A stretch of 53,104 nt of DNA from an uncultured bacterium. Lineage in GTDB: Bacteria; Bacillota_I; Bacilli_A; Erysipelotrichales; Erysipelotrichaceae. Position 1 is the first letter of the stretch. The number at the start of each line of letters is the position of its first letter. The notes under the pieces are model-generated. The model saw nothing but the letters and a program-made list of their open reading frames with translations. It searched no databases and was not told where the DNA came from. This document shows positions 27,134-52,894 of this stretch, piece by piece. The position numbers and the translations under genes were made by a program. The stretch covers positions 1-53,104 of the forward strand of contig CAIXIN010000056.1 of the NCBI GenBank assembly GCA_903919545.1. The letters run 5' to 3'.

Positions 27134-27191
27134 TAATTTATTTTTTCAGTGATCAAATGTGGTAAAATAGTAACAAGTATGGAGGGTTTGT

Positions 27192-28207: not shown

Positions 28208-28236
28208 ATGAAGGGGATATGCTATAATATTTTTAC

Positions 28237-28250: not shown

Positions 28251-28260
28251 GGAGGAACAT

Positions 28261-28977: not shown

Positions 28978-28979
28978 TC

Positions 28980-33460: not shown

Positions 33461-33479
33461 AAAAAGTATACAAAACACT

Positions 33480-33493
33480 TGAAAGCGTTTTCG
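33480..33493. promoter_or_regulatory. LacI-type operator 4 on the promoter of the binding-protein gene
   Basis: TGAAAGCGTTTTCG. It overlaps a near-consensus promoter: -35 TTGAAA (33479-33484), 17-base spacer, -10 TAATAT (33502-33507). A small inverted repeat GGATTA/TAATCC (33509-33524) lies near the transcript start, ahead of AGGAGG. Confidence 0.75.
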
Positions 33494-33538
33494 TAATTTG
33501 CTAATATAGGATTAGAATTAATCCATTAGGAGGAAACA

Positions 33539-35146
33539 ATGAAGAAAATTCTACTAGTTGTTATCGCATTAGCATTCATTGGCTCAACTCTAACCGGATG
33601 TTCAAGCTACAAAGCCCTCGATAAAACAATCGAAGGTAGTATCGATGTTATGATGTGGTCCGGCGACGGCACCTACATTGAAGACCTCGGTCACAAAGAC
33701 TTGGCACCGGAAGATCTAAAAGGCCAGAATAACGCATCTGTATATGCAGTCGCTAAAGCCTTCAACGCTATTTATCCGAACGTTAAGATCAACGTTTATG
33801 CTAAATCCGGCGGTCCTGGAACTGCTGCTGAATGGGTTCAAGAAATTGAAAACTTCAAAGTAGACCATGGTAAATATCCGGATCTCTATGCTGCTATGGA
33901 TCTTCCTGGCGATATCGCTCGTGGATTCGTTGCTGACCTATCCGTATTTAGCAGTGACCCTTTATACAAATCATTCAACAAATCCATCTTGGGTATGATG
34001 AACTACTACGGCTTCCAAGCTGGTTTACCACAGTTCTTACAACCTTGGGGTATCTACGTTAATAAAGCATTGGCTGAAGATTATAATATTGAAGTTCCAG
34101 AAGCAAACTGGACCATCGACGAATACACAGATTTCATTACTTCTGCTAAACCTGAAGATGGTTTCTATGGAGCGATGGATGTTGATATCGACATCATTCG
34201 TACTGGTGTTACCACCATCGAACAACAAATGAAGAACTACAGCGGAACCGGCGACTATGTCAACTTGGCTTCCGATGAAGTTAAAGCCTTATTGGACTAT
34301 GTTCCTGAATGGGCTTCAGTTGCTGTTTGGGCACAAAATGATGCAGGCAACGTATCTGGCGACTTTATGAACGCACACTGGTGGTGGGGTCATAAAATGT
34401 TTGCTGACAACGTATTGTTGACCAACGCTGGCGATCCTTGGATGATGGGCGATTGCGCTAATCCAGAAGATCCTTGGGGCGGTTCATGTAAGTCTTCCGA
34501 CTGGGATATCTATCCACGTCCTTCTACAGATTATCAAGACAACACTGTTGGTGTAGTATTAGACCCAATGGCTGTCTACAATCATTGTATGGATGACGGC
34601 GATGCTGCTTGTACAACTGAAGAAAATGCTGCTACAAAATTGGCATATACCTTCACAGCTTTCATGGCTGGCGATACAGCTGCATGGCAGGCAAGAGCTG
34701 ATCAAACATTCTTGGATGGAACAACTGTTAAATCCGCTATGAATGATTCTCTACCTTTCGTTACTGGCAAAGCATTCGACGAACAAATGGAAATCTGGTA
34801 TCAACCAGCCATCCACAATCGTTTTGCTGATGCTGCTAAGATGCCTGGTTGGCACCTGATTCTCGACATCTGGGAAAAAGGTCAAGTATGGGCAATTTCC
34901 GATAAAGCTGCTTTATGGTTCTACACTGAAAATGGCGAAAAGAAAACCATCATCAGCGAATTCCTAAGCATGAATAATCCGGAAATCGCTGGCGCAACCC
35001 GCGTATCCCCAAGCTTCCCGAATGAAGTAAAAGCAAGATTGGCTGATTGGAATACATCCGCTAATGAACGCTTCCAGATCGCTGAAACAGCACTGAGAGA
35101 TGCTTTGAAAGAATTCTACGGCTTCAAAGACGCAGACTTCAAATAA
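33539..35146 (+). CDS. Carbohydrate ABC transporter substrate-binding lipoprotein
   Basis: A 535-residue extracellular solute-binding protein (family 1-type) with signal peptide and lipobox LTGC (Cys21). The mature part has DVMMWSGDGTYIED, YPDLYAAMDLPGDIARGF and many Trp residues suited to stacking on sugars. Two cysteine-bearing loops (GDCANPEDPWGGSC and NHCMDDGDAAC) may form disulfides. It has its own operator-controlled promoter and its own terminator, so it is expressed apart from the permeases. Its codons look richer in GGC, AAC, TTC and CCG than its neighbours, which points to very high expression or a different origin. It likely captures beta-gluco-oligosaccharides. Confidence 0.88.
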   Translation: MKKILLVVIALAFIGSTLTGCSSYKALDKTIEGSIDVMMWSGDGTYIEDLGHKDLAPEDLKGQNNASVYAVAKAFNAIYPNVKINVYAKSGGPGTAAEWVQEIENFKVDHGKYPDLYAAMDLPGDIARGFVADLSVFSSDPLYKSFNKSILGMMNYYGFQAGLPQFLQPWGIYVNKALAEDYNIEVPEANWTIDEYTDFITSAKPEDGFYGAMDVDIDIIRTGVTTIEQQMKNYSGTGDYVNLASDEVKALLDYVPEWASVAVWAQNDAGNVSGDFMNAHWWWGHKMFADNVLLTNAGDPWMMGDCANPEDPWGGSCKSSDWDIYPRPSTDYQDNTVGVVLDPMAVYNHCMDDGDAACTTEENAATKLAYTFTAFMAGDTAAWQARADQTFLDGTTVKSAMNDSLPFVTGKAFDEQMEIWYQPAIHNRFADAAKMPGWHLILDIWEKGQVWAISDKAALWFYTENGEKKTIISEFLSMNNPEIAGATRVSPSFPNEVKARLADWNTSANERFQIAETALRDALKEFYGFKDADFK

Positions 35147-35154
35147 TCGTAATT

Positions 35155-35177
35155 AGGCACCTTCGGGTGCCTTTTTT
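35155..35177 (+). terminator. Rho-independent terminator after the binding-protein gene
   Basis: AGGCACC, loop TTCG, GGTGCCT and a T-run. Confidence 0.95.
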
Positions 35178-35196
35178 ATGTCTAGATGAGAAATTG

Positions 35197-35210
35197 CGAA
35201 AACGCTTTCT
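35197..35210. promoter_or_regulatory. LacI-type operator 5, upstream of GH4 and the transporter operon
   Basis: CGAAAACGCTTTCT. It touches the -35 TTGATT (35210-35215) of a promoter with a 17-base spacer and an extended -10 (TGA then TAAAAT at 35233-35238). The ATG at 35248 lies about ten bases after the -10, leaving almost no leader. Confidence 0.72.
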
Positions 35211-35247
35211 TGATTTATAAGATGAATTTTGATAAAATAAATGTATT

Positions 35248-36651
35248 ATGAAAACAAACATAAATACGACTAAAATTGTGGTCATAGGTGCAGGTAGTGC
35301 CTCCTTTGGTTTGGTCAATTTAGGAGCCATTATTCGCCATCCACAACTTAAAGGAATTCGTTTATGTTTGGTTGATATCAATGAATCTGGTCTACAATAC
35401 ATCACTCAATTGGCTCAGAGAATGAATCGTGAATGGAAGGCAGAAATGACCATCACTTCAACCACAGATCGTACTGAGGCTTTGATCGATGCGAATTATA
35501 TAATCTTATCTGTTGCGGTCGATCGTGAAGCCTGTTGGAAAAGCGATGTCGATATCGCACTGAAATATGGAATACGACATTATGGAGAAAACGGTGGTCC
35601 TGGAGCACTGATGCATACAGCGAGAAACATCGCCATCATCATGCCGATCTTAAGGGATATCGAACGATTATGCCCACAGGCAGTTGTCATGAATTTCACG
35701 AATCCTGTGCCTCGTATATGTATCGCCGCAGCTCGTTATACCAAAGTTAAAATGGTGGGTATATGTCATCAGATCGATTTTGGTTATTTGATGGTTGCGA
35801 AGATCTTTCAAGAAGAATATGGATTTAAGGTACCTAAAGATTATCGCTTTACTTGGGAGGGGGATTGGGGGATCTATGGAGACATGGTGAGCCAAGCCAA
35901 AAAGAGATTTATCTTACTGGCTGCAGGGGTCAATCATTTCACTTTCTTCTTATCTCTGATCGATAAACAAACAGGACAAGATCTCTTACCTAAGTTCAAA
36001 GAAAAATTTAAAAATTCTTATCCTGAATTTGAGCCTTATACACGAGAGATCTTATCTACATTAGACATCTTACCTGTATCAGGAGATTGTCATATGTTGG
36101 AATACTTCCCCTTTACTCACAATGAAGCTAAGAAAGCTTGGGAACACTATGATATCCAAATGTATCCTTTGATGAAAGCAGAAGGTGATCGTCACCAGAT
36201 GTGGAGAGAAATCGAAGATTTGGCCTGTGGAAAAGGGTCCATCGATCATCTGCTTCATACCCATACAGAAAGAGCAGAACAGATCATCGTAGCGATGATG
36301 AATGATGAGCCTTATCATGATCAAGCGGTAAATGTGCCTAACCTTGGTTATATCCAAAACTTACCCTTAGATGCCATCGTCGAAGTACCTGCGTCATTTA
36401 TGAAAAATTCGATCAAAGGTGAGACTATAGGAAACCTTCCTGAACTTGCTGCCTTGTGGTGTCGACGTGAAATAGAAAGTGCAGAACTTGCGGTAAAAGC
36501 AGCTGTCAATGGAGATAAAGCTACGCTCCTACAAGCCTTACTCATCAATGGGATGATCGATGATATCCCAAGCGCAAAAGCAATGCTTAAAGATTATCTT
36601 AAAGCCAATACACAGTATCTTCCTCAGTTTAATAAAAAAGGAGAAGCTTGA
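35248..36651 (+). CDS. GH4 family NAD- and metal-dependent glycosidase
   Basis: A 467-residue GH4 enzyme. The NAD-binding start is IVVIGAGSASFG; MNFTNPVP, GICHQ (Cys173, His174) and AGVNHF (His230) are the Mn/NAD active-site stretches. GH4 cleaves glycosides by transient oxidation at C3. The residue after the metal Cys helps define subgroups: 6-phospho-beta-glucosidases usually read CN and 6-phospho-alpha-glucosidases CD, whereas the CH seen here is the pattern of enzymes for unphosphorylated sugars (recalled family knowledge, not tested). The gene heads a ten-gene operon running to 50.5 kb. No RBS is visible and it may be leaderless. Confidence 0.9.
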   Translation: MKTNINTTKIVVIGAGSASFGLVNLGAIIRHPQLKGIRLCLVDINESGLQYITQLAQRMNREWKAEMTITSTTDRTEALIDANYIILSVAVDREACWKSDVDIALKYGIRHYGENGGPGALMHTARNIAIIMPILRDIERLCPQAVVMNFTNPVPRICIAAARYTKVKMVGICHQIDFGYLMVAKIFQEEYGFKVPKDYRFTWEGDWGIYGDMVSQAKKRFILLAAGVNHFTFFLSLIDKQTGQDLLPKFKEKFKNSYPEFEPYTREILSTLDILPVSGDCHMLEYFPFTHNEAKKAWEHYDIQMYPLMKAEGDRHQMWREIEDLACGKGSIDHLLHTHTERAEQIIVAMMNDEPYHDQAVNVPNLGYIQNLPLDAIVEVPASFMKNSIKGETIGNLPELAALWCRREIESAELAVKAAVNGDKATLLQALLINGMIDDIPSAKAMLKDYLKANTQYLPQFNKKGEA

Positions 36652-39554
36652 TGAAACGAATCTCAACTCTGGTCTTATCGTTGTTTCTGAGTTTAAGCTT
36701 ATTAAGCGGATGCCAAAGTGGATCTGCCGTCGAAAACTATAGTGATGGTGAAAGAGACGAAGCTTATTCTTATTTGATTGAAACGCTTAATCAACCTGCT
36801 TTGTTTTATGCGGATTATCTTAAGACTTTAGAGTCAGATTCTTTAGAACTCGAAAAAGAAATAAGTACTGAAGCTTTGGTTTTAGGAGCTTACGCAAGCG
36901 TTGATTTTTCGCTCAATCTTGAAAGCGCTACCACAGCTCAACTTAGAATCTATTATCAAGTTGAAGACGGGACCTTATTATCGCCTATCCTTTCAGTTGC
37001 GATCAATGGGAAGAATCCTTTCGTTGAAGCACTATCGATCGATGTAGCCCTCAATTGGTTCAGTGATACCTCCTCTTTCCCTTTGGATTCATATAAAGAT
37101 GAATCATTACCTCTTCAAACGGTAGATACTTCTATTGTGGCTTTGGATTTCTATGATAATTTACACAGTAGTACTCAACCTTTAAAGTTTGGATTTGAAG
37201 CTGGAGACTCTACTATAAGCTTCACGAATGTTTCTTCTAGTCCAATCAATATCATCAAAGTGGTCTTGATGCCTGTCAATGAGACCCCAAGCTATAGTCA
37301 ATATGCCTCTTCTTTAAGCCTAGAATCTAAAGAAGCCATCTTGACCGATGCGATCCATTATAGTTCTAAGAACTCATCGTTTGTTCGACTCAGCTCTTAT
37401 GGATCTCCATCTGTATCACCTTTCTCAGTCAATACAAAATTACTGAACATCATCGATGGGGTTGCCTGGAATAAATCGGGGCAAGCTGTAAGCTATACGA
37501 TCGACGTAAAAGAAGCTGGAGCGTATGCTTTAGCGGTTCATTATCTCAATGATAAGACTGATTTCCAGGTTTTCCGTTCCATCTTGATTGATGGGAAGAT
37601 CCCATTTCAAGAACTAGAAGCTTATGCCTTTGATTATACAGGTGGAGGTAATTGGGGTGTAGAGCTTATCTCTGATGATCAAAAAGAACCTTACTTGTTT
37701 AATCTAAGTAAAGGAACTCATAAGATTACCTTTATGGCTGAAAATGAACCTTTGGTTCCTTCATTAACGACTATCCGTAATCTGATCGCCCACATCAATG
37801 CCTTTGCCTTAGATATCCGTAAGATCACAGGGAGAGACATCGATCGTAATCGAACATGGAAATTAACGACCTTCTTACCTGAAACAGAAAAGAATCTTAA
37901 TACCTATAAGATCCTTATCAGTCGCTTGGTAAGTGATCTGTCTGTTTACGCCAATAACGGGACATCCTCTTCAGCGCTTTCTTACTTACTTAAAGCCATC
38001 ATGAAACTGGATAAGATGTTGGAAAAACCAGATGAATTGCCTTTGTATTTGGATGATCTATACAGTGCGACTGGATCAGTCACTGAAATGTTGGGCAATA
38101 CCTTGACCACACTTCAAGGCCAAGCCCTTTCATTAGATAGCTTTGCTTTCTATACAGATAAACAACCTTTATTATCCAACGCATCTTTCTTTGATGTTGC
38201 GAATTCAACCGTTTTAGGGTTCATCAATTCCTTTACTTCTAAAAAATACATCGCTAAGAAAGATCCTACTGTACTTAATGTATGGGTCAATCGATCGATC
38301 ACTTATGTCGATACGATGCAGAAACTGGTCGATCAGACTTTTACCCCAGAAACAGGCATCAAAGTAAAGATCTCTGTTATGCCTGATGTCAGTAAATTGA
38401 TTTTGGCCAATGCGACCAATGAAGCACCTGATATTGCCTTAGGATTACCATCCTATATGCCTTATGATTTTGCGATAAGAGATGCCGCTTATCAACTCAG
38501 CTCATTCCCTGATTTCTGGGAAACTGTTGGGAATATGCCTGCTGGATCGATGGTGCCTTATGTCCTCAATGAACAAGTGTATGCAGTTCCTGAAACATTG
38601 GATTTCCATGCGGTTATTTATCGAAAAGACATCTTTGCGAATCTAGATCTTACAGTACCTGACACTTGGCAAGATGTCATAGATATCTTGCCTGAACTTC
38701 AACGTTATGGGATGAACTTCTATCACTTAACGGCTGGAGGAACAGCCTTGAAGTGGTACTATCAGACCAGTCCTTTCGTTTATCAATTTGAAGGCAGTCT
38801 CTATTCTAAAGATGGCTATAGTTCAGCGATCGATAGTCCTGAGACCGTAGCTGGGCTTAAGTTTATGACAGATCTCTTTATCAAATATGCGATTCCTGAA
38901 CAAGTTGCTTCTTTCTATAATGGCTTTAGATTTGGATCATTACCTATCGGTATCACCGATTTTTCAACCTACCTACAAATAAAGAATGCTGCTTCTGAGT
39001 TGACTGGTTTATGGGCGTTAGCGCCTTATCCAGGCATCGAGAATGACCAAGGTGAAGTCTTACGTTGGGACATCGTCAATGGGACAGCAGGCATCATCTT
39101 CAAGAGTACCAAGTATGCGGACAACAGTTGGGACTTTATGAAATGGTGGATATCAACTGAGACCCAAACTTCTTTCGCTTATGCCCTACAATCGACCTAT
39201 GGTCCAGAATATGTATGGTTATCTTCTAATCTAGAAGCAGTTAAGAATGCCCCAATCGATGCGGCAGATAAACGTGTCATGCTTGAACAGTTTACTTGGA
39301 TCAATGACGTGCCTCGTTTACCAGGTGGCTATATGCTAGAACGTGGTCTATCCGACATCTGGAACACCACCGTTTTAGAAGGCACACCAATAAGAGTCGC
39401 CATCGATATGCAGAAGATCAGTATCGATAGAGAAATCAAACGTAAGATGATCGAATTTGGTTACTTAGATACCAATGGGAATGTGATTAAACCTTATATC
39501 GTAAGAGGAGTCGATTGGATCCAAGCTCAAATCGACGCAGCGAAGGAGAACTAA
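36651..39554 (+). CDS. Large composite solute-binding lipoprotein (beta-sandwich domains plus ABC binding-protein core)
   Basis: A 967-residue lipoprotein (lipobox LSGC, Cys21). The ABC solute-binding core occupies only the C-terminal part from about residue 537 ([23 protein letters not shown] through the C-terminus). Before it lie two regions with beta-sandwich character, about 50-190 and 220-370 (for example [21 protein letters not shown] and [14 protein letters not shown], resembling carbohydrate-binding modules), and a helical stretch near 380-490. The extra domains may hold polymeric glucan near the importer. The ATG at 36651 overlaps the GH4 stop by one base, after AAAGGAG. Twice the length of a normal binding protein. 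Confidence 0.82.
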
Positions 39555-39555
39555 G

Positions 39556-40494
39556 ATGAACATCGTTAAACGTGTACGACGAGTCTTTATCGAAAAGGCT
39601 GGTGAATCTACTTTCAATGATTACCTAACGATCTTCTTATTGCTTCTGCCTTATGCTTTATTGTTTTCTTTGTTTGTAGCTATACCTGTAGCCTTAGCGA
39701 TTGGTTTATCATTAACTTACTTTAATACGATACAGGTTCCTGAATTTAAAGGCTTCCTCAACTATATTATGCTTTTGACTCAAGATGAAGTCTTCTTAAA
39801 ATTTGTCTTACCTAACACCTTTAAGTACGCCTTGATTATTGGACCAGGCGGATACTTCTTATCGTTTATCTTGGCTTGGATGTTGGCTCAGATTACCCCT
39901 AGGATGAGGACGATCATCGCCTTGGCTTTGTATACTCCATCGATGGTTGGTGGTGTCTTTATTTCAGTCGTATGGAGAACCTTGTTTTCAGGAGATGAAG
40001 CAGGATACATCAATGCGACACTGATGCAATGGGGATGGATCGTAAGACCCATTCAGTTTCTACAATCCCCACAATATTTAATGAACATCATGATCATTGT
40101 TGGATTATGGTCTGCGATGGGGATAGGCTTCCTTGCGATGTTGGCAGGGATACTGAATACCAACGAAGAACTGTATGAAGCAGCCTATATCGATGGGATC
40201 AAGAATAAACTTCAAGAAGTTATCTATATCACGATTCCTTCGATGAGAAGCCAAATGCTCTTTGGAGCGGTTATGGCCATCGTTGGGGCTTTCAATAGTG
40301 GTTGGATCGGAGTTGCCTTATCAGGCACCAATCCTACACCTCAATATTCAGGTCAATTGATCATCAATCATATTGAAGATTATGGCTTTATACGATATGA
40401 GATGGGATATGCTGCAGCTGTATCAGTGGCTTTGCTTTTGATCATTTGGGGTTTTTCTAAAGTAGCTTACCGCTTGTTTGGAGAAAGGGACTAA
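39556..40494 (+). CDS. Carbohydrate ABC transporter permease, MalF/UgpA type (first pair)
   Basis: A 312-residue permease with about six helices and the cytoplasmic coupling motif [21 protein letters not shown] (EAA loop, with the usual Gly). [24 protein letters not shown] is the first helix. AAGGAG precedes the ATG one base after the previous stop. It pairs with the next gene, and the two probably work with the large binding protein encoded just upstream. Confidence 0.93.
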
Positions 40495-40495
40495 T

Positions 40496-41365
40496 ATGGC
40501 ATTCCAAGGCACTAAAATCAATCCTAAGCGTTTTGATAAGTCTCAGCTTAAATTCTATGCAGTCTTAGTTCCTATGGCTTTATTTATGGTCTTACCTGTC
40601 ATATACATCGTCAATCAAGCGTTTAAACCACTCGATGAACTCTTTATGTTTCCCCCAAGATTCTTCGTCATCAAACCTACACTAAAGAACTTCACTGATC
40701 TCTTTAGGACTGCGTCTACGACAGGGGTCCCTATGAGCCGATACTTATTCAATTCGATCATCGTCACCGTAGTCACTGTCTTAGCGAATATCTTGATTAC
40801 GGCTGCGAGTGCTTATGTCTTATCCAAGAAGAAATTCAAACTTAAAAAGAAACTCTTTGCCTTAAATCAGATCGCATTGATGTTTGTGCCTATCGCTGTA
40901 GCGATTCCTCGTTTCTTGATCATCAAGAACGTAGGATTAAGCGATAACTTCTTGGCTCACATCATTCCTTTATTGGCCATGCCTATTGGTCTATTCTTAG
41001 TGAAACAGTTTATGGATGATATACCGGATGCCCTCATCGAAGCCGCAAAACTAGATGGGGCCAATGATTTCCAGATCCTATTAAAGATCGTTATGCCTTT
41101 GGTTAAACCAGCGCTTGCGACGGTAGGTATCTTGACCTTCCAAGTGGTATGGAATGCGACAGAAAGCTCTAGTTTATACATCTCAGATGAAACCTTAAAA
41201 ACCTTTGCCTTCTATCTTAATACTTTGACCTCATCATCTAACACCATTGCGGGGGCAGGGATGTCTGCAGCTGCAGGTTTGATCATGTTCTTACCTAATC
41301 TCATCATCTTTATGTTGCTTCAGTCTAAGGTCATGAACACCATGAGCCATTCTGGGATCAAGTAG
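40496..41365 (+). CDS. Carbohydrate ABC transporter permease, MalG type (first pair)
   Basis: A 289-residue permease with about six helices and the EAA loop [21 protein letters not shown]. The ATG at 40496 follows GAAAGGG and lies one base after the preceding stop; a longer frame from 40478 overlaps the neighbour without an RBS. It forms the second half of the channel with the gene at 39556. No ATPase gene accompanies the pair. Confidence 0.93.
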
Positions 41366-41373
41366 GAGGCACT

Positions 41374-43422
41374 ATGAAAAAAGCACGTTCATTCTTGATT
41401 CTTCTGCTTGTATTATTTAGCTTTACTTTATCGGTAAGTGCCTCTTCAGCGACTTCTCCTACACGAACCCTAGACTTTAAATTTAACTTGGTTTGGACTC
41501 AAGATGCTTATCTTCCTCAACTAACAGTAACCAATCTAGGATTAAAGAATCCTCAAGATATGGCTATGGATGATCAAGATCATCTCTATATCGTAGATAA
41601 GGAACATCAACGTGTCGTAGAATACGATACGACAACGGACACCATCGTACGTGTATTAGCCTATGAAGGATTCTCTGGTCCTGCGGGCATCTTCTTGGCT
41701 CAAAACGGAGACATCTATGTGGCTGATCCTACCGCAGAAGCCATCTTTAGATTCAATCATGCGGGAGACTATATTGAACAATTCGATCGTCCTACCACGG
41801 CTTCTTTCGGTGATACGCCTTATAAACCATCCAAGGTCGCCGTCGATAATCGAGGTAATCTCTATGTCCAATCTGAAGGGGTCTATAATGGGATCATTCA
41901 GCTCTCCAACTCAGGGGAATTCTTAGGATATTTTGCCTCCAATAAAGTAAAACTCAATATCCTACAAATGCTTCAGGATATGTTTTTCACCGATGAACAA
42001 AAAGAAACCTTGACTGGTAGAGTCCCGACTACTTTCTCTAATCTATTCATGGATAAAGACGGGATCCTATATTCAACCACGATGGGTGGCACCTTAAGCT
42101 TCATGATGCATGGGCTTAAGAAACACAACACTGCTGGACAAGATATGTTTGCGGATCGTTTTATCTGGGGGTTCAGTGATTTCTCAGACATCACGGTTGA
42201 TAAAGATGGGATCATTTATGTGACCACTAAAACGGGTCAGATCTTTGCCTATACCAATGAAGGAGAATTCATCTATTTCTTTGGATCTCGTTATTCTGAA
42301 TCAGACATCGCGGGTCTATTTACCTCGCTTGTATCTATCGCAGTAGATTCAAAAGGCAATCTATGGGCACTTGATTCAGAGAAGTCCTTTATCCAATCCT
42401 TTAAACCAACTGAATATGCCTTAAGCATCTATCAAGCGACCAAGCTCTTTACTGAAGGTCGATATGATGAAGCCACCGTCGTATGGGAAAGCGTCTTACG
42501 TTTGAATCAAATGTCGGTCGTAGCCCATAACGGGATCGGTGCCAACCTAATGTATCAAGAACGCTATGAAGAAGCCATGGTTCATTTTGAAGTTGCGGGT
42601 AATCGATACGCTTATTCTGATGCCTATTGGGAAGTAAGAAATAAGTGGTTACAAACCAATTTAAGCACCATCTTAGCTTCGTTATTGGGTCTGTTCCTCC
42701 TACTTACTTTTGGGGGAAGATTGTTTAAAAAGACCAAAGCCTATGCCTTCTTAAAGAAAGAAAAGAATGCTTTCTTAAGTCTACGTTTCATCTCGGATCT
42801 TCTTCTATTCCTGAAAGTCATGAGGCATCCAATCGATACCTTCTATGACTTGAAAGATAAGTCAAAAGGATCAGTCATAAGTGCGATCGTAGTTTACTTA
42901 GGATTCTTTGGGATCTTTATTTGGTATACCTTAGGGAAAGACTTTATCTATCAGTTCTTATTGGTGGAAGACATCGATATGAATGCGATCGTCATAGGAT
43001 TCTTCTCCTTGACCTTATTGTTTGTCTTATGTAATTACTTGGTCTCATCGATCAATGATGGGGAAGGTGGTTTCGTCGATCTATTTAAAATGATGGCCTA
43101 TAGTTTTGGGCCTATGATGATTGGGTATATCTTGATCATAGGGCTCTCCTATATCTCTACCAACAATGAAGCATTCTTCCTATCGACGATTGAACAAGTC
43201 GCCATGATTTGGACCGGAACGAATTTATTCTTAGGTATACAAGAAGTTCATAACTATGAAACCAAGGCAGCATTTAAGAGCTTGGTGATGACGATCTTAT
43301 TTATGGTTCTGATTGCGGTTGTATTACTGATCGTCATCCTTATGACTGAACAGGTCTATATGTTCTTTGAAGCCATCATCAAGGAGGCACTACGCAATGC
43401 GAATTTTCTAAGAAAAGCTTGA
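41374..43422 (+). CDS. NHL-repeat / TPR / YIP1-domain membrane protein
   Basis: A 682-residue protein in three parts. After a signal peptide, residues about 45-340 form NHL-type beta-propeller repeats (for example NPQDMAMDDQDHLYIVDKEHQRVVEYD and GPAGIFLAQNGDIYVADP), predicted outside. Residues about 345-405 are a TPR-like helical pair (LFTEGRYDEATVVWESVLRLN). A transmembrane helix near 430 is followed by a C-terminal YIP1-like domain with about five helices from about 480. Such proteins recur beside DUF5696 proteins and sugar ABC permeases in Gram-positive bacteria; their function is not established. A strong GGAGG site precedes the ATG. Confidence 0.8.
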   Translation: MKKARSFLILLLVLFSFTLSVSASSATSPTRTLDFKFNLVWTQDAYLPQLTVTNLGLKNPQDMAMDDQDHLYIVDKEHQRVVEYDTTTDTIVRVLAYEGFSGPAGIFLAQNGDIYVADPTAEAIFRFNHAGDYIEQFDRPTTASFGDTPYKPSKVAVDNRGNLYVQSEGVYNGIIQLSNSGEFLGYFASNKVKLNILQMLQDMFFTDEQKETLTGRVPTTFSNLFMDKDGILYSTTMGGTLSFMMHGLKKHNTAGQDMFADRFIWGFSDFSDITVDKDGIIYVTTKTGQIFAYTNEGEFIYFFGSRYSESDIAGLFTSLVSIAVDSKGNLWALDSEKSFIQSFKPTEYALSIYQATKLFTEGRYDEATVVWESVLRLNQMSVVAHNGIGANLMYQERYEEAMVHFEVAGNRYAYSDAYWEVRNKWLQTNLSTILASLLGLFLLLTFGGRLFKKTKAYAFLKKEKNAFLSLRFISDLLLFLKVMRHPIDTFYDLKDKSKGSVISAIVVYLGFFGIFIWYTLGKDFIYQFLLVEDIDMNAIVIGFFSLTLLFVLCNYLVSSINDGEGGFVDLFKMMAYSFGPMMIGYILIIGLSYISTNNEAFFLSTIEQVAMIWTGTNLFLGIQEVHNYETKAAFKSLVMTILFMVLIAVVLLIVILMTEQVYMFFEAIIKEALRNANFLRKA

Positions 43423-44519
43423 AAAGCGTGGGTATCACGCTCTTCGTTTTGATTCTATCGATTCAAGTCATTGTGGCTGTGTATATCCCAACGGCTCATG
43501 ATACAAAGCTTCCTCCAGAAGCGATCTCTTATGTGATCTCAGATCCTACAGATTACGAACTCTTGACTGAAACAGAGAATTTTAAGTATTACTTTAAAGA
43601 TTCAAGAGATGTATTAAGCATCGTCGATAAAAGAAATGGATATACCTGGAAGACAGGACTAGATGTAGAATTCAATACAGTTTTAGAAGATGCCTGTGAT
43701 TTGGTTCCTGAAGCAGATCAGATCAATTGTGAACCTATCGAAGATAGAATGAATACTACCTATATCGGGATCGCTAACTCATTGATCACGATCGAATATT
43801 ATGATTCGACCAATGCGATCAAACGTAAATCGAGCGCATCTAAAGATGGGGTAGATAGTACCCTAGTTAAAGTAGATGGGAAAGACAATGTGTTTAGATT
43901 GGATGTGAACTTCAAAGATCTCGACATCGAGATCAAAGTCCATATCACTTTAGATGATAAAGGCTTTACTTTAGACATCAACGATGAAGACATCACAGGA
44001 GATGGACAATCCATCTTGGCTGCGATCATGCTGACACCGTTCTTAGGGGCCTCTGGAGGACAAAAACTCTATTGGGATCCTGCGCGTAACAATTTCAAAA
44101 GAGAAGTACCTAGTGAGATGATCGATGGTTATGTGTTTGTTCCTGATGGACCAGGCGCATTGATTCGCTTTGTCGATAGAAACATCGGACTAAGTCCTTA
44201 TGTAAGCAAGATCTATGGTGAAAACCCTGCAGAAGCAGAATACTATTACACTGTAGCTGGGAATCATTTACCACTTAAACAAGCAGTGATGCCTGTTTAT
44301 GGGGTCGCCCATGGGAATAGACAAGCAGCCTTTGTGGCCTTTGCGACCCAAGGTGCAGGCAATATGAAGATCCTAGTATCACCTGAAGAAGACATTACTT
44401 ATTACACTATGCTTATACCCGTTTTGAATACAATAGAATATTCTTCCAAGTTTACAATAAACGAGGTGATGGATTCTTTACCTCGATGGAAGAAAGACGT
44501 CATTTTGATGTCTCGATGA
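43419..44519 (+). CDS. DUF5696 family protein, N-terminal part of a frameshifted gene
   Basis: A 366-codon frame coding for a signal anchor (VGITLFVLILSIQVIVAVY) and a beta-rich domain with the DUF5696 landmarks VFVPDGPGALIRF and MPVYGVAHGNRQAAFVAF. The frame ends at 44519 in nonsense-like residues (PRWKKDVILMSR), while the family domain continues in another frame. The start is also odd: an AGGAGG with a well-spaced ATG at 43397 leads to a stop after four codons, and only a TTG at 43419 opens this frame. The two halves together match one protein of about 780 residues. Family function is unknown; it is regularly coded with YIP1 proteins and sugar permeases. Confidence 0.75.
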   Translation: MKSVGITLFVLILSIQVIVAVYIPTAHDTKLPPEAISYVISDPTDYELLTETENFKYYFKDSRDVLSIVDKRNGYTWKTGLDVEFNTVLEDACDLVPEADQINCEPIEDRMNTTYIGIANSLITIEYYDSTNAIKRKSSASKDGVDSTLVKVDGKDNVFRLDVNFKDLDIEIKVHITLDDKGFTLDINDEDITGDGQSILAAIMLTPFLGASGGQKLYWDPARNNFKREVPSEMIDGYVFVPDGPGALIRFVDRNIGLSPYVSKIYGENPAEAEYYYTVAGNHLPLKQAVMPVYGVAHGNRQAAFVAFATQGAGNMKILVSPEEDITYYTMLIPVLNTIEYSSKFTINEVMDSLPRWKKDVILMSR

Positions 44520-45751
44520 CATATCAATTCTTAGCCAATGATACAGATCGTCCTGCAGATTATGTAGGGATGGCATTAACTTATCGTGATTATCTTTTGG
44601 ATAATGATGGATTACCTCAACAGATCTCTTCGTCAAGTGACGTCGGTATTCGTTTAGACTTCGTTATGGCTGACATCAAGAAAAGTGTCTTGGGTCTAGA
44701 AGATGTCATTGTCACCACAGCTAAAGACGTAGGAAATATCCTGACTCAACTCGAAACCGATGGGATCAAAAACATCAACAGTGGATTACTGGGCTGGCAA
44801 GCAGGTGGGATCACCAATGGACATCCAGGAACGACGAATTTCTCCTCGGCGATTGGTTCATCTACTGCATTTAAATCACTCCTTGAATTGGCTTCATCCT
44901 ATGACTATGATGTCTCCTTTAGTCAAAACTACGCAGCCATCAATAAGAAACAAGTCAACTATCAGACCTCAGCCGCTCGTCATATGAACAGCTGGTATAT
45001 TGAGACGCGTGTATCCAACGATTATCCGATCTCAGTCTTAGGTATCGCTAAACCTAGTAAATCAGCAGTGTGGTTAAAGACACAATCAGATAAGCTCATC
45101 AAATTGGGCGTAAGTTCCTTGACCATCGATGGGATCTCCAATATCCTGACCTCAGATTATGATGCGGGTACGACCAGTATCGATGAGACCATCGAGCTTT
45201 ATACAACAGCACTAGGAAAAATCGATCCTACAGTGATGATCGCTATGCAAGCTCCAAATGATTACCTATGGAAGTATGTAGACCGTTATCTAAACGCTCC
45301 TGTTTTCTCAAATCAATTCTTGATTGAGACAGATACAGTACCTTTCTTACAGATGGTTTTAAACAATCGTATGGAAATGTATGCACCTTATTCTAATTTC
45401 TCTTTCTATACTCAGAAAGATATCTTAAGAATGATCGACTATAACCTTTATCCTTCCTTCGCTTTATCTCAACAACCTGCTTATAAATTAGCCTTAACGA
45501 ATTCTAATCGATATTACTCAACCGAATTCAAAGAATATGAACCTCTCATCAAGAGTATCTATTCTGAAGTGAATTTGGTCTTACGTGAAGTCAGTGGAAA
45601 AGATTGGATCGATAGAACGGTCGTTGAGAATGGTGTTATCTTGAATACCTATTCTGATGGGACCAAAGTCTTAATCAACTATACCGAAGATGCGCTTAGC
45701 TATGGAGATCAACTCGTAAGAGCCTTATCGGCCGTTGTGGTGAAGGAGTAA
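44486..45751 (+). CDS. DUF5696 family protein, C-terminal part of a frameshifted gene
   Basis: A 421-codon frame that continues the protein begun at 43419. The in-frame opening reaches back to 44387, and its residues upstream of the nominal ATG (RFEYNRIFFQVYNKRGDGFF, then MEERRHFDVSMTYQFL) read as natural family sequence, so 44486 is not a true start. ADYVGMALTYRDYLL and the following alternating helix-strand sequence suggest a TIM-barrel-like glycosidase-type domain. No RBS serves 44486. Unless the base call is wrong, this half is not made, or is made only by frameshifting. Confidence 0.72.
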   Translation: MEERRHFDVSMTYQFLANDTDRPADYVGMALTYRDYLLDNDGLPQQISSSSDVGIRLDFVMADIKKSVLGLEDVIVTTAKDVGNILTQLETDGIKNINSGLLGWQAGGITNGHPGTTNFSSAIGSSTAFKSLLELASSYDYDVSFSQNYAAINKKQVNYQTSAARHMNSWYIETRVSNDYPISVLGIAKPSKSAVWLKTQSDKLIKLGVSSLTIDGISNILTSDYDAGTTSIDETIELYTTALGKIDPTVMIAMQAPNDYLWKYVDRYLNAPVFSNQFLIETDTVPFLQMVLNNRMEMYAPYSNFSFYTQKDILRMIDYNLYPSFALSQQPAYKLALTNSNRYYSTEFKEYEPLIKSIYSEVNLVLREVSGKDWIDRTVVENGVILNTYSDGTKVLINYTEDALSYGDQLVRALSAVVVKE

Positions 45752-45753
45752 TC

Positions 45754-46773
45754 ATGAAAAAAGAAGCAAAGATCAAGAAAGTTAAGAAATCAAAGAAAAA
45801 CAAAGGCTTTAAAGAAATAAGCAATCGTTCTGGTTATAAGTTCTTTATGCCTTGGTTGATTGGGTTCATTATCTTTACTGCTTTCCCCTTCATATATACG
45901 ATCTACCTCAGTTTTAGTTCAGTAAGATTGACCGTGTTAGGTTGGGAAACGACCTTCAACGGGATCGCCAATTACGTCACCGCTTTATTGAGAAATACGA
46001 GTTATACCCCAGCCTTGGTTCAGTTCTTTCTCGCTGAAGTCATTTATGTGCCTGTCATCATCACTGTGGCTTTGATTTTAGCCATTCTAATGAATGGGGA
46101 CTTCAAGTTTAGAACTTTGTTTAGAGTCATCTATTTCTTGCCTGTTATCGTTATTTCAGGATCAGTAATGACCCAGTTGATGAGTACAGGTTCTGTTCAG
46201 ATTGGGAATGTAAGAGGGGTCTTTATCTTTCAGATCTTAGAAAGCTATTCACCTATCTTAGCCGATCTGGTCATCTTCTTATTCAATAATTTCGCCATCG
46301 TATTATGGTTTAGTGGGATTCCTATCGTCTTATTCTTGAATGGACTTCAAAAGATCAATACCCAGTTGTTTGAAGCAGCCCAAATCGATGGCGCTACAGG
46401 ATGGCAGATCTTATGGAAGATAACCTTACCGATCATACGACCCATCATCTTGGTTTCAACCATCTTTACGATCGTTCAGTTGGGGATGTTTCCAATCAAC
46501 CCAGTTTATGGGATGATCCAAAATGCGATCTTTGATACAGTAGCTGGTTTAGGTTTAGCTTCTGCTTATGCATGGATCTATTCATTCCTAGTGTTGATAC
46601 TCTTAGGGGTTGCCTTCTTATTGTTGAAAGATCATTCTAAAGATTATGCCTATGTGGATGTTGTTCGTCTACAAAACGAGAAACTCGAAAAGATGAGAAA
46701 AAGAGTTCGACGTCAACAAGAATGGAATGCTTTCTTTAGAAAGCAAAAAGGAGTCAAACATGGAAAGCATTAA
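45754..46773 (+). CDS. Carbohydrate ABC transporter permease, MalF/LplB type (second pair)
   Basis: A 339-residue permease with a Lys-rich N-terminus (KKEAKIKKVKKSKKNKG), about six helices and the EAA loop FEAAQIDGATGWQILWKITLP. GAAGGAG precedes the ATG. It differs clearly from the first pair, so the operon encodes two distinct channels. It overlaps its partner gene by 14 bases. Confidence 0.92.
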   Translation: MKKEAKIKKVKKSKKNKGFKEISNRSGYKFFMPWLIGFIIFTAFPFIYTIYLSFSSVRLTVLGWETTFNGIANYVTALLRNTSYTPALVQFFLAEVIYVPVIITVALILAILMNGDFKFRTLFRVIYFLPVIVISGSVMTQLMSTGSVQIGNVRGVFIFQILESYSPILADLVIFLFNNFAIVLWFSGIPIVLFLNGLQKINTQLFEAAQIDGATGWQILWKITLPIIRPIILVSTIFTIVQLGMFPINPVYGMIQNAIFDTVAGLGLASAYAWIYSFLVLILLGVAFLLLKDHSKDYAYVDVVRLQNEKLEKMRKRVRRQQEWNAFFRKQKGVKHGKH

Positions 46774-47719
46774 ACGTTTCATTCCAATTCTAAAAAAGAA
46801 GTTATTAGGACACAACATCAGTGATGGACTTGTCTATAAAACAGCCGTTTATGTGCTGCTGATTGCGATCGCTTATGTGTTTCTATATCCTTTGTTTAGA
46901 ATGGTGTCCTATAGTTTCATGTCGACCAAAGACATCATCAATCCAGAGATCGACTGGTTACCAATACATCCTACACTTTTGAATTTAAAAATTGCCTGGG
47001 AAGTAATGAGTATGCCTTGGACCTTATTAAATTCAATGTGGTTTGCGGGAACCTTAGCTCTGGCTCAGACCCTTATCTCTGCCTTAACAGGTTACGCCTT
47101 TGCGCGTTATGAATTTAAGTTTAAGAACTTTTGGTTCATGATGGTTTTATTATCGTTTGTTATACCTATTCCAGTTGTATTGATTCCTCGCTGGATGATG
47201 TTCTCATCGGCTCAAAACATTCTTCAATTCAAGATCATAGGGACTGTAATACCTCAGCTTCTATTGGCCATCGCTGGTCAAGGGGTCTATTCAGCCATCT
47301 TGATCTTGATCTTCTATAATTTCTTTAAGATGATTCCTGTAGTGCTAGACGAAGCCGCTAAGATCGATGGGGCAAGTAATTTCCAAGTCTTTTATCACAT
47401 CATCTTAAAGATGTCTGTGCCTACCATCATTACGGTTTTCTTATTCGCTTTCGTTTGGAACTACAATGAGACTTATGTGACAGGGACCTTTGTTCGTCAA
47501 GCACTTAAACTGATGCCTGGTCAATTGGGACTCTTTGACTCGATCTTCTCTGATAAAGTAGCTGTCATTCCTGGTGCTCCAGGAGGTGTCTTTAGATTAA
47601 GTGAATCCTATAAGATGGCTGCGACGATGATCACGATGGCTCCTATGATGATCATGTATTTCTTCGTTCAGAAACAATTCGTTGAAGGTATTGAAAAGAC
47701 TGGGATCACTGGAGAGTAA
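46760..47719 (+). CDS. Carbohydrate ABC transporter permease, MalG/YtcP type (second pair)
   Basis: A 319-residue permease with about six helices and the EAA loop DEAAKIDGASNFQVFYHIILK. The ATG at 46760 follows AAAAGGAG; an upstream in-frame start at 46727 has no RBS and overlaps deeper into the previous gene. With the gene at 45754 it makes the second channel. Which binding protein (33539 or 36651) serves which channel cannot be decided from sequence. Confidence 0.92.
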   Translation: MESIKRFIPILKKKLLGHNISDGLVYKTAVYVLLIAIAYVFLYPLFRMVSYSFMSTKDIINPEIDWLPIHPTLLNLKIAWEVMSMPWTLLNSMWFAGTLALAQTLISALTGYAFARYEFKFKNFWFMMVLLSFVIPIPVVLIPRWMMFSSAQNILQFKIIGTVIPQLLLAIAGQGVYSAILILIFYNFFKMIPVVLDEAAKIDGASNFQVFYHIILKMSVPTIITVFLFAFVWNYNETYVTGTFVRQALKLMPGQLGLFDSIFSDKVAVIPGAPGGVFRLSESYKMAATMITMAPMMIMYFFVQKQFVEGIEKTGITGE

Positions 47720-47720
47720 A

Positions 47721-48725
47721 ATGGATCATATTAGAGCCGTTAACTTAGGTGGTTGGTTGGTGCTTGAGCATTGGATGAGACCTACGCTCTTTGAAGGTAT
47801 CAATGGTTATGATGAGACTCAATTCTCGCTTCAAGCCAAAGACCTTAAGAAACAACTGGATGATCATCGAGAGACCTTCATCGATGAATCTGATTTTAAA
47901 TGGATCAAAGACCATGGATTGAATTGTGTAAGATTACCTTATCCTTATTGGTTATTTGGAGATATTGAACCTTATTATGGCTGTGTCAATAAACTCGATC
48001 AGATCATGGATTGGGCACAGAAGTACGATCTCAAAGTACTCTTAGATCTACATACAGCCCAAGGTTGTCAAAATGGATTCGATAATGGTGGTCAATTAGG
48101 CATCATGACCTGGCACACCAAAGCAGAGAATATTGAACACACACTTCAGATCTTAGAAAAAGTAGCCTTAAGATATAAAGATCATCCTGCTTTATGGGGG
48201 ATGGAAATACTAAATGAACCTCATTGGACCTTAGAGATCTCGTTGATCGAGAAGTTTTATAGTGAAGCTTATGTTCGATTAAGAAAGATCTTAAAGCCAT
48301 CTACGGAGCTTGTTTTTCATGATGCTTTTAGAGCGACGGTTTGGAAAGACTTCTTAAAAGATAAAGAGAAGGTAATCTTAGATCTTCATCTTTATCAAAG
48401 CTTCGATGAGAAGTTTAGACAGAATGATCTTGTCTATAATGTGAAGTTTCCTTTAGAAGGCTATGAAGAGAAGTTTAAAGAGATTTCTACTTATGCCCGT
48501 TGTATCATCGGTGAATGGTCCTTGGGACTAGATCCTAAAGTGATCGATCATCTAGATAAATTTAACCAAGACCTAGGATTAAGAGCGCTTGCGGATACTC
48601 AGTTATTGGCCTTTGAGAAGGTCTATGGATGGGTCTTCTGGAACTATAAGATTGAAGACCAAGACTCAGGATGGAACTTTAAACGCCTCGTAGAAAGGGG
48701 AATACTGCCTCATGATTATCGTTAA
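47721..48725 (+). CDS. GH5 family exo-beta-1,3-glucanase-like glycoside hydrolase, cytoplasmic
   Basis: A 334-residue GH5 enzyme. It opens with RAVNLGGWLVLEHWMRPTLFE, very like fungal exo-beta-1,3-glucanases. The acid/base Glu166 is in MEILNEPHW and the nucleophile Glu265 in IIGEWSLG; LLDLHTAQGCQNGFDN is another landmark. No signal peptide, so it would act on imported laminari-oligosaccharides. The ATG at 47721 follows GGAGAG one base after the permease stop. It overlaps the lipoprotein GH3 by 14 bases. Confidence 0.9.
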   Translation: MDHIRAVNLGGWLVLEHWMRPTLFEGINGYDETQFSLQAKDLKKQLDDHRETFIDESDFKWIKDHGLNCVRLPYPYWLFGDIEPYYGCVNKLDQIMDWAQKYDLKVLLDLHTAQGCQNGFDNGGQLGIMTWHTKAENIEHTLQILEKVALRYKDHPALWGMEILNEPHWTLEISLIEKFYSEAYVRLRKILKPSTELVFHDAFRATVWKDFLKDKEKVILDLHLYQSFDEKFRQNDLVYNVKFPLEGYEEKFKEISTYARCIIGEWSLGLDPKVIDHLDKFNQDLGLRALADTQLLAFEKVYGWVFWNYKIEDQDSGWNFKRLVERGILPHDYR

Positions 48726-50502
48726 AAAAATATTGGTCATCGTCTTGATGACCATCACTTTGGTGTCTTGTAAAAAAGAACCTGAAGTCATCTTGACTCC
48801 TTTAGAAGAAAAACTGGCTTCGATGACACTGGATGAAAAACTGGGTCAAATGGTTCAAGCTGAACGTTACTCAGTTGATGCCACTAAAGTAAAGAACACC
48901 AATATGGGCTCTGTCTTATCAGGTGGAGGATCTCATCCTAGCCCAAATACCGTTGAAGGATGGTTGGCTTTGACAGGTGGTTTGAATGATGGTTCTTTAT
49001 CAGGTTCTGCAGAACTTCCTTTACTCTATGGGGTAGATGCGGTTCATGGACATAATAATCTTAAAGGTGCAGTTCTTTTTCCTCATAATATTGCCTTAGG
49101 GGCAACACATGATGAGGATCTTCTTGAACGTATTGGTAAAGCTACTGCGATCCAACTCAAAGCGACTGGGGTCTCATGGGACTTTGCGCCTTGTTTAGCG
49201 GTCGTTCAAGATGTTCGTTGGGGTAGAACCTATGAATCCTATTCAGAGGATCCTCAGCTTGTTTCTAGCTTAGGTGCAGCGTTTATCAAAGGTCTACAAT
49301 CAGAAAAGATCATGGCTACTGCCAAACATTATTTAGCGGATGGTGGTACTGATTTCGATGAGACTAAAAACAACTATATGTTGGATCAAGGCAATGTCAC
49401 CTTAAGCGAAGCTGAGATTCGTGAGCTTCATTTGCCTCCTTATATCGCAGCGATAGAAGCCAATGTCTTAAGTGTAATGGTGTCTTTTAGTTCCATAGAT
49501 GATGATAAGATGCATGCCTCTACCTATTGGATCACAGATGTCTTAAAGACAGAACTTGGATTTAAAGGGGTAGTTGTCTCAGATTGGGAAGCCATTCATC
49601 AATTACCAGGATCTCTTCTTAATCAGGTCAGTGCTTCAGTGAATGCTGGCGTAGATATCTTAATGGAACCTAACGCTTGGAGAGATGTCTTAAGTACTTT
49701 AAAAAGAGCAGTAGAAAACGATATGATCCCAATGAGCCGTATCGATGATGCGGTCATGAGAATACTTTACGTCAAAGATGAATTGGGTCTAGAAAACATG
49801 GGCAGTGCTCAACTTGACTATGAAGGTGATAAAGCCTTAGCAAGAGAAGCCGTTGCGAAATCTCAGGTCCTTCTACTCAACAAAGGTGTTTTACCTCTAC
49901 AAAAAGAAGTGGATATCTTATTGATAGGTCCTGGAGCTGATAATGCGGGTCTACAAAATGGAGGTTGGTCCTTCTCATGGCAAGGTGAGACTACAGGTGT
50001 GAATTTCCCTAATGCGACAACCTTATTAGATGCCTTTAGAGAAGTCGCTGACGCCAATGGAGGACATATTTATACTGATCTAAAAGATGCCTCAAAAGCA
50101 GACATCGTTGTCTTGGTTTTAGCGGAAGTGCCTTACGCAGAAGGTATAGGTGATACCTCTGATCTTAGCTTAACAGGTGCTTTAGCTCATGAGGGCAACG
50201 CAGATGCGATCAGACAAGCAGAAATGACCAAGAAACCTATTTTGACCTTACTAATGACAGGAAGACCTGTATTGATCGAAGAGTATGTGGATAAGTGGGA
50301 TGCGATCGTTGCGAGCTGGTTGTTTGGGACAGAAGCACAAGGTGTAACGGATGTCTTATATGGTGATGTGCCTTTTACAGGAACCTTGAGCTTTACTTGG
50401 CCTAAGACTGTAGAAGCCAATTTGACTTCATCTAATAACCCAAATCGAGATTTTATGAAGGTTCATTACGATATAGGATATGGATTGATTACTTCTAATT
50501 AA
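48712..50502 (+). CDS. GH3 family exo-beta-glucosidase, lipoprotein
   Basis: A 596-residue GH3 enzyme with signal peptide and lipobox LVSC (Cys20), so anchored outside. SMTLDEKLGQMVQ, LLYGVDAVHGHNN, FAPCLAVVQDVRWGRTYESYSEDP and ATAKHYLADGGT are typical of plant-like exo-1,3/1,4-beta-glucanases; the nucleophile Asp is in VVVSDWEAI. It lacks the fibronectin domain of the cytoplasmic GH3 at 28980. Together with GH30 it forms the surface part of the locus. It starts within the GH5 gene and ends at a strong bidirectional terminator, closing the operon. Confidence 0.93.
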   Translation: MIIVKKILVIVLMTITLVSCKKEPEVILTPLEEKLASMTLDEKLGQMVQAERYSVDATKVKNTNMGSVLSGGGSHPSPNTVEGWLALTGGLNDGSLSGSAELPLLYGVDAVHGHNNLKGAVLFPHNIALGATHDEDLLERIGKATAIQLKATGVSWDFAPCLAVVQDVRWGRTYESYSEDPQLVSSLGAAFIKGLQSEKIMATAKHYLADGGTDFDETKNNYMLDQGNVTLSEAEIRELHLPPYIAAIEANVLSVMVSFSSIDDDKMHASTYWITDVLKTELGFKGVVVSDWEAIHQLPGSLLNQVSASVNAGVDILMEPNAWRDVLSTLKRAVENDMIPMSRIDDAVMRILYVKDELGLENMGSAQLDYEGDKALAREAVAKSQVLLLNKGVLPLQKEVDILLIGPGADNAGLQNGGWSFSWQGETTGVNFPNATTLLDAFREVADANGGHIYTDLKDASKADIVVLVLAEVPYAEGIGDTSDLSLTGALAHEGNADAIRQAEMTKKPILTLLMTGRPVLIEEYVDKWDAIVASWLFGTEAQGVTDVLYGDVPFTGTLSFTWPKTVEANLTSSNNPNRDFMKVHYDIGYGLITSN

Positions 50503-50572: not shown

Positions 50573-52894
50573 TTACTTAGAATCTTGTTTTTTCCTCGAT
50601 ATAAAGCCTAAACCTAAGCCGATACCTAAGATCCACATCCAATAGGACTCAACTCCGGTATCAGGGAGTTCTTCTTTGAAACTCGCTTTTAAGACGATAG
50701 ATTCACCTAATGAAGTGTTGAAATCAAAGGGATTATCTTCCTCATCTAGCCACTTATCAAAGACAAAGCCTTCTAGTTTAGGATCATCTATTGGGCTTAC
50801 AGTTGAGTTAGGATCGATGATAACTACTCCTAATAAGGTTCCATCTGTCCCAGTAAAATCGATACGAACCAAGCCTGGATTGAAGGTCGCATAACCATCA
50901 TTGAATTCACTATAAATGAACCAATGATCTAGTCCTGTAAAATCAAAGCCTTCATAAGCAGTCTTTAACATCATTTCAGTCGTCGTTTTACCGACACCCA
51001 TTCCAGAATTATTGGTTACTGTAGTTAAGGTTGAATCATAGTATACATGAGAGTAAGTATAATTTGATGTGGAAATTATCCAACCCATAATAGGGTCTGT
51101 TTTATTTGGATCAGTAGGATTAGGATTCTCATCATCATGGATCATAGCCAATTTTCCTGCATAGTAAACATCAGTAAGACTAATAATATTGACATAATCT
51201 ATTAAGTGAGCCCCGCCAATGAGCCCTCCAATACCAACAGAATTATAAGTATAGTGGATGTTTGCGCGTACGTAAGATTCTGTGATGTTAAGTGTATCGT
51301 TATCGTCGTAGCTGACGATGGATCTTCCAATAAAACCACCACCGAAATAACCATTCACGTAGATATCGCCTAAAACGATTGCATGATCAATGCTTGTCTT
51401 TGTGTCTAGTCGACCAGAAATTCCACCAACGAAGCTTTCACCATGAATTTCTCCATCGAAAGTAACGTTTTTGAGACTGGTTAAAGTACCGTAGGTAATG
51501 ACCCCTATGATCCCACCAACGTTACTTGTAGCAACGATCGACGCATTAGTGACTGTGGCTTGATCGATGGACATGGTGTATACGGCACCAATCAATCCAC
51601 CGATGACGGCGTCACCACTGATGTCTATGTTTTTTATATTGATAATCGCTTCACTAGAACTGGTTATCAATTGTCCAGCCAATGAACCAATCGATTGACT
51701 ATTATCCTCTGAGGAAGTTTCACTAAATATAAAACCATCAATATTTACAACTCCTTTAAAATTGATGTTTGTCCCATAAGCGATAACACCACCAAAATTT
51801 GAATTGCTATTTTGAGTAGATTTTATCGATAAGGTCATGATCCTAACATTTTCAAAAATAAGATTTGACCCATTCCCTATTATCCCTCCAACACGATAAA
51901 ATCCTTGAACTACGACATCATTTAGTCCTGCTTCATAAATATGGTTGCTTACTGAACTATTGTATTTTCCTATGAGACCTCCTACATTCACAAAACCTTT
52001 GACGCTAGCATTTCTTGTTGTATTGTCAAGAAAGATCGATCTATAAGCACTCGTAAAATCAGTTTCGGTGGAGTAAAGCCCAACGATACCTCCTACATAG
52101 ATTTCATCCCAATCATAAATGATAAAATCCGAAGTAAAAGCTAGATCAGCTGATTCATAGATATTGGACTGAAAAAGCGTATCAACTGCGTTACCAACAA
52201 AGCCGCCTATAGCCATATCTCCATCAAAATCATAATAACCTTCATATTGTAAATTGAAATTGACTCCCATATCTAAAATGACAGTATTGTTAGAGATCAT
52301 GGAAGGATTAGTGGGGTCATTATCACCGATGACTTCCCCAATCATACCTCCAACGGTACGATGAACACTCACCAAAGCATCGAGTCGATATGTCACATCC
52401 ATCGTTCCTTTGATGGTGACATGATCGATCAATAGTTTTCCACCTTCTTCAACTTTAGCGAAACCAGCTAAAGCCCCAATATAGAACTCTGGATCCGTTA
52501 CGATGACTGAGATATCGACAAAACTCATCGATAAATCCGTAATCGTTGCCCCACCTAATCCATAGAATAATCCAAGAGATACAAAGTCAGAAGAAACATC
52601 TAAGACATCGATCGTTAATCCTGAGATATCATGTTCATTCCCGTCGAATGTCCCGCTAAATAGATGAGTCCCTGATGTTCCTAAAGCAGTCCAGTTCTCA
52701 CCACTGAGATCTAGATTGTTCATTAGGATATAGGAATCATCCCAATCCCCAACGGTTCCGATTGCTTTAAGATCATCGACTGTGAAGATCTGCCAAGGAT
52801 CTAGTGGAGTTCCACTCCCTAAGGCAGAGACATTCATTTTTTGATTCCCAATCATAAGCCATAAAGATAAAATGAGGATTATTATTTTTCTCAT
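50573..52894 (-). CDS. LPXTG-anchored surface protein with GLUG-type repeats
   Basis: A 773-residue exported protein. After a signal peptide, SGTPLDPWQIFTVDDLKAIG opens a repeat region in which glycine-rich units recur (for example IGGFVGN, VGGLIGK, VGGIIGN, IGGLIGA, VGGIIGV, VGGISGR), the pattern of GLUG/IgA-peptidase M26-like beta-helical repeats. An InlB-type repeat (about 670-740, with GFVFDKWLDEEDNPFDF) precedes the sorting signal LPDTG at 743, a hydrophobic helix and the tail RKKQDSK. It is expected to be a wall-linked adhesin or glycan-binding fibre. TAGGAG lies upstream of the ATG. No sortase gene is in the window. Confidence 0.9.
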   Translation of the reverse strand: MRKIIILILSLWLMIGNQKMNVSALGSGTPLDPWQIFTVDDLKAIGTVGDWDDSYILMNNLDLSGENWTALGTSGTHLFSGTFDGNEHDISGLTIDVLDVSSDFVSLGLFYGLGGATITDLSMSFVDISVIVTDPEFYIGALAGFAKVEEGGKLLIDHVTIKGTMDVTYRLDALVSVHRTVGGMIGEVIGDNDPTNPSMISNNTVILDMGVNFNLQYEGYYDFDGDMAIGGFVGNAVDTLFQSNIYESADLAFTSDFIIYDWDEIYVGGIVGLYSTETDFTSAYRSIFLDNTTRNASVKGFVNVGGLIGKYNSSVSNHIYEAGLNDVVVQGFYRVGGIIGNGSNLIFENVRIMTLSIKSTQNSNSNFGGVIAYGTNINFKGVVNIDGFIFSETSSEDNSQSIGSLAGQLITSSSEAIINIKNIDISGDAVIGGLIGAVYTMSIDQATVTNASIVATSNVGGIIGVITYGTLTSLKNVTFDGEIHGESFVGGISGRLDTKTSIDHAIVLGDIYVNGYFGGGFIGRSIVSYDDNDTLNITESYVRANIHYTYNSVGIGGLIGGAHLIDYVNIISLTDVYYAGKLAMIHDDENPNPTDPNKTDPIMGWIISTSNYTYSHVYYDSTLTTVTNNSGMGVGKTTTEMMLKTAYEGFDFTGLDHWFIYSEFNDGYATFNPGLVRIDFTGTDGTLLGVVIIDPNSTVSPIDDPKLEGFVFDKWLDEEDNPFDFNTSLGESIVLKASFKEELPDTGVESYWMWILGIGLGLGFISRKKQDSK

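Follow-up and report, generated by a model that had tools for sequence, protein, structure and literature searches.

Two one-base length changes break a DUF5696 gene in the glycan-use locus of an uncultured Erysipelotrichaceae bacterium

Introduction

A DUF5696 (PF18952) gene of an uncultured Erysipelotrichaceae bacterium appears in its assembly as two overlapping reading frames, which raises the question of whether the cell makes two proteins, recovers one by recoding or has lost the gene, or whether the break belongs to the assembly. The window, by which we mean the whole stretch of DNA that was analysed, is a contig of 53,104 nucleotides (C56 of genome G000; CAIXIN010000056.1), and G000 is a metagenome-assembled genome (MAG) of 2.03 Mb in 284 contigs that is 80% complete. 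A preliminary description of this DNA had reported DUF5696 homology running in one frame and continuing one base back in a second frame open from 44387, had placed the junction at CCC 44418-44420, and had proposed either a loss-of-function mutation or a homopolymer base-call error. All features described below lie on the + strand unless stated otherwise.

Results

Two reading frames match consecutive parts of one protein family

Profile searches agreed with the reported change of frame. The ORF at 43419-44519 matched PF18952 profile positions 7-190 (107.7 bits, E = 7.6e-31), while the frame open from 44387 (44387-45751) matched positions 161-611 (353.1 bits, E = 3.8e-105). Both scores exceed the Pfam gathering cut-off (25.6 bits), the two profile stretches are consecutive with a slight overlap, and no single frame in the window is continuous across the 612-position model, the frames changing at 44406-44408. 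Given these E values and relatives that carry the gene as a single ORF, sequence similarity indicates that the split match is not due to chance. The N-terminal fragment (43419-44519, 366 aa) has TTG 43419 as its sole start, which overlaps the upstream stop (TTGA), and it holds family sequence only up to 44405, so that its last ~37 residues are out of frame. The C-terminal frame has its first ATG at 44486, and the resulting ORF (44486-45751, 421 aa) has neither a signal peptide nor a recognisable ribosome site.

The alignment with intact DUF5696 proteins that the preliminary description had suggested found the relatives unsplit. In the nearest gene-bearing relative, G001 (JAAXXT010000006.1), the gene is one frame with 96.8% DNA and 98% protein identity (L014:1168-3519; window counterpart 43397-45751), and each of six more orthologs from four genera is one frame of 778-805 codons. 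The intact relatives of the window gene have about 784 codons (comparable orthologs about 780-800), and they are continuous through DITYYTYAYPRFE, where the window gene splits.

The gene differs from intact relatives by two single bases

Base-by-base comparison with G001 showed that the window lacks one base at 44406-44408 and has one extra at 43404-43407. The shorter site, which is also seen in the alignment with the other relatives, lies within the conserved DITYY|YAYxRFE and throws translation into the wrong frame there. It is ~12 nt upstream of the CCC at 44418-44420, which proved to be a substitution and not a length difference, and the TMLIP that had been read as the end of the first family part is already out of frame in the G001 alignment. 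The longer site, found by alignment with L014 and L018, had been missed, so the earlier account of one frame break describes a break that is real in the sequence but leaves out a second one at the start of the gene. The native start region (43381-43411) consists of a strong Shine-Dalgarno sequence, AAGGAGG, at 43381-43387 (7 matching bases, spacing 9) and ATG 43397, which is homologous to the start used in all relatives; because of the extra base, this frame is open for just four codons before the stop at 43409. The same base adds four residues to the upstream NHL/Yip1 ORF, which now runs to the TGA that overlaps TTG 43419. Neither site contains a long homopolymer, and the longest runs in the gene (A5) lie elsewhere. 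Loss of function and base-call error both survive as options, with the supposed homopolymer reduced to a run of two to three bases. On these alignments we take ORFs 43419-44519 and 44486-45751 to be one DUF5696 gene broken by two one-base length changes, which makes two frame-breaking differences from intact orthologs, as in a pseudogene or an interrupted gene (ICDS).

Frame breaks are rare elsewhere in the assembly

Alignment of the window with G001 was gapless over 26167-40781 and contained two gaps only over 42230-50500, both of them in the DUF5696 gene. Frame breaks were also compared over the window and 40 further contigs against about 0.5 Mb of G001. Among the 64 genes compared (20,441 codons), DUF5696 alone is whole in G001 and split in G000, and the lack of a split in the other 63 led us to reject a generally error-rich assembly. 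The gene makes up 3.9% of the compared codons, which gives a chance of about 0.04 that a second random lesion would land in the same gene; that both single-base differences fall there counts in favour of a real loss.

A DUF5696 gene is present in 15 of the 273 genomes of the family. Some of these copies end at contig edges, and full-length matches in the class consist of one stretch each among the matches listed. In G314 the apparent split marks the place where a scaffold was joined by NN, and the ortholog from another genus in G309 (L110, G309:C41) carries a lone in-frame TAA at codon 111 in a gene whose remainder is intact and conserved, so that this MAG copy shows a second, independent break. 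We rejected a split shared by relatives, the G314 case being a join and the G309 case a different lesion. A second, distant DUF5696 paralogue is represented in G000 by its N-terminal end, which lies near a contig end (G000:C140:11910-12176) and matches the second copy of G001.

Selection on the gene

Over the whole divergence, dN/dS was 0.047 and 0.041 for the two DUF5696 parts, and the neighbouring genes mostly gave 0.01-0.09. None of the 11 amino-acid differences fell on the 301 of 784 positions at which the orthologs do not vary (a chance of 0.005 for an unconstrained protein). With dN/dS like that of the neighbours and no change at an invariant site, almost all of the divergence arose under selection, and the protein must therefore have been serving its function up to a very recent time, if it does not do so still. 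A ratio of about 0.04 with the invariant sites untouched would make the break either very young or an error. When changes were polarised using G002 and G006, the DUF5696 gene on the window branch had 8 nonsynonymous and 14 synonymous changes, compared with 26 and 187 in 12 neighbouring genes (Fisher P=0.006) and with 1 and 23 in the same gene on the sister branch (P=0.009 against the window branch). This nonsynonymous excess is moderate, because the count of the first GH3 neighbour is raised too on the window branch (10:37). Together with the presence of two lesions in one gene and the lack of breaks in the 63 others, the excess would slightly favour a real, recent loss at the very tip of the branch over an error; the selection evidence as a whole is mixed.

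Locus, fold and partners of the intact protein

The gene lies in a glycan-use locus (27192-50502) that encodes a LacI regulator, GH16, GH3, GH2, a 535-aa protein, GH4, a 968-aa solute-binding protein, a permease pair, the NHL-Yip1 protein, the broken DUF5696, another permease pair, GH5 and GH3. The combination of LacI regulation with GH16, GH3, GH2, GH4, GH5 and GH3 suggests beta-glucan use. The upstream partner (41374-43422), a membrane protein with NHL repeats, a TPR-like region and Yip1, is the neighbour of DUF5696 in relatives too. Downstream, the second pair of ABC sugar permeases (45754-47719) is intact and likewise a conserved neighbour, with zero or one amino-acid change relative to G001.

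Some features of the locus stand apart from the broken gene. A single operon (36648-47719) encodes two separate permease pairs (39556-41365 and 45754-47719) but just one, very long solute-binding protein (968 aa), and the first 500 residues of the latter gave no convincing Pfam match. Two ORFs that adjoin glycosidase genes, 33539-35146 (535 aa) and 50573-52894 (- strand, 773 aa), gave no Pfam match; the second has 83% identity to its G001 counterpart with a dN/dS of 0.24 and is markedly less conserved than its neighbours.

A structure model of the intact G001 protein was built from 45 sequences (pLDDT 83, pTM 0.87), an earlier one from 7 sequences having been too poor for use. Its best Foldseek match was a GH129 enzyme (ZgGH129, 5OPQ; E 7.3e-30, TM 0.60/0.70), a sequence profile found NagBb (5WZN; E 2.6e-6), and the modelled fold is GH129/GH101-like (5OPQ, NagBb; E 7e-30). 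Except for D/E 681, no Asp or Glu of the barrel is conserved in at least 80% of the 45 DUF5696 proteins, and DUF5696 may be a non-catalytic protein with a glycosidase fold. Of 37 distant DUF5696 loci (L105-L168), 36 adjoin ABC permeases of the same kind and 32 of them also adjoin an NHL/Yip1-like gene. Throughout the class the gene order is NHL/Yip1, DUF5696, permease, permease, and this conserved block (41374-47719 in the window) has the look of an accessory module, so far undescribed, that serves carbohydrate ABC importers; a literature search found no paper on DUF5696/PF18952 and nothing relevant on NHL, Yip1 and ABC-transporter loci. From the model and the gene neighbourhood we infer that DUF5696 is probably a GH129-related exported partner of a sugar ABC transporter, possibly non-catalytic.

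Discussion

The window gene is split and carries two length differences, its relatives are intact and its neighbourhood is conserved. The most likely cause, to which we give about an even chance, is a real loss of gene function, and a very recent one, in the strain or population concerned, which would make the gene a pseudogene at its earliest stage. Read as assembled, the native ATG 43397 yields four residues only, the poor TTG start might still allow an N-terminal part with the signal peptide and the first beta-sandwich, and the C-terminal part (the rest of the sandwich, the barrel and the C-terminal beta domain) would lack both a good start and an export signal. With starts that are poor or absent and a C-terminal part that would not be exported, no working DUF5696 protein would be made; we infer that the organism itself carries the lesions and that the gene product does not function. 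It counts against a real loss that two indels without one disabling substitution are unusual for decay.

An error in the consensus or assembly ranks as a close second, with a probability somewhat short of even. The gene would then be intact in the organism, and the length differences would be base-call, low-coverage or strain-mixture artefacts. The constraint that persists over the divergence, with every invariant residue retained, counts in favour of such an error, and the MAG is fragmented and incomplete (284 contigs, 80% complete). Other MAG copies carry breaks that look like artefacts or alleles (the NN join of G314 and the lone stop of G309), and in Mycobacterium smegmatis 28 of 73 interrupted genes proved on re-sequencing to be sequencing errors (PMC1852416). 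However, the 63 unbroken genes indicate that errors are not frequent in general, a pair of them within 1 kb would require a local cause, neither site is a long homopolymer, and indel errors would not be expected to produce the nonsynonymous excess seen on the window branch.

Readings in which the split gene still works are improbable even when recoding and functional splitting are taken jointly. Programmed -1 ribosomal frameshifting, which would restore the full-length protein, is very unlikely. The required direction is indeed -1, the two frames share 133 nt, weak tetramers occur in phase (T_TTG 44423, A_AAC 44459, T_TTA 44477 and T_TTG 44504), and the downstream RNA folds better than shuffled sequences (z = -2.6). 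However, the overlap 44387-44519 contains no X_XXZ_ZZN heptamer, in line with the preliminary description, which had noted the lack of an X_XXY_YYZ heptamer; none is in phase there. In E. coli, U_UUA and U_UUG tetramers raise frameshifting just 1.8-3.6-fold above background even when the stimulator is strong, and the ten tetramers named as raised do not include A_AAC (PMC4066793). The relatives are unsplit at this point, where the region is plain conserved coding sequence with no conserved signal, and slippage would leave the start lesion at 43404-43407 uncured. With no heptamer, weak tetramers and no conservation in relatives, we rejected a programmed frameshift.

We find it just as implausible that the N- and C-terminal parts are made independently as two functional proteins and then assemble, even though each ORF is open and both parts retain a conserved sequence. 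No Shine-Dalgarno sequence precedes ATG 44486, which we therefore rejected as an independent internal start, and starting there would skip about 26 conserved residues; TTG 43419 has a 4-base Shine-Dalgarno match only. The C-terminal part would lack an export signal, no relative has this arrangement, and the break cuts through a strand predicted at residues 336-344 of the intact relative, so that the two parts do not correspond to natural domains. There is likewise scarcely any likelihood that the lesions are bypassed by re-initiation at TTGA 43419 and low-level -1 slippage near 44420, with the split tolerated or regulatory.

Annotation should treat ORFs 43419-44519 and 44486-45751 as parts of a single disrupted DUF5696 gene rather than as two proteins, and should regard the last four residues of the upstream NHL/Yip1 ORF as a mere consequence of the first lesion. 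Should the lesions prove real, this population is missing an accessory in a glycan-uptake operon that is intact in other respects, and it offers a natural experiment on whether the operon can do without it.

The intact protein resembles GH129 enzymes (ZgGH129 5OPQ, NagBb 5WZN), which match the model of the intact relative over nearly the whole chain (TM 0.60/0.70); it differs in its low identity to them (10-13%) and in barrel acids that, D/E 681 apart, are unconserved across the 45 proteins. The window copy is like the DUF5696 proteins of ABC sugar-transport operons of the same class in sequence, length, signal peptide region and neighbours, whereas those are open and the window copy is frame-broken. 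It is an ordinary broken gene, and not a new kind of gene expression. As in ICDS such as those of Mycobacterium smegmatis (PMC1852416), adjacent ORFs match consecutive parts of one intact homologue, and the split stems either from a genuine indel or from an error in sequencing; the difference is that the window has two length changes in one gene of a metagenome assembly.
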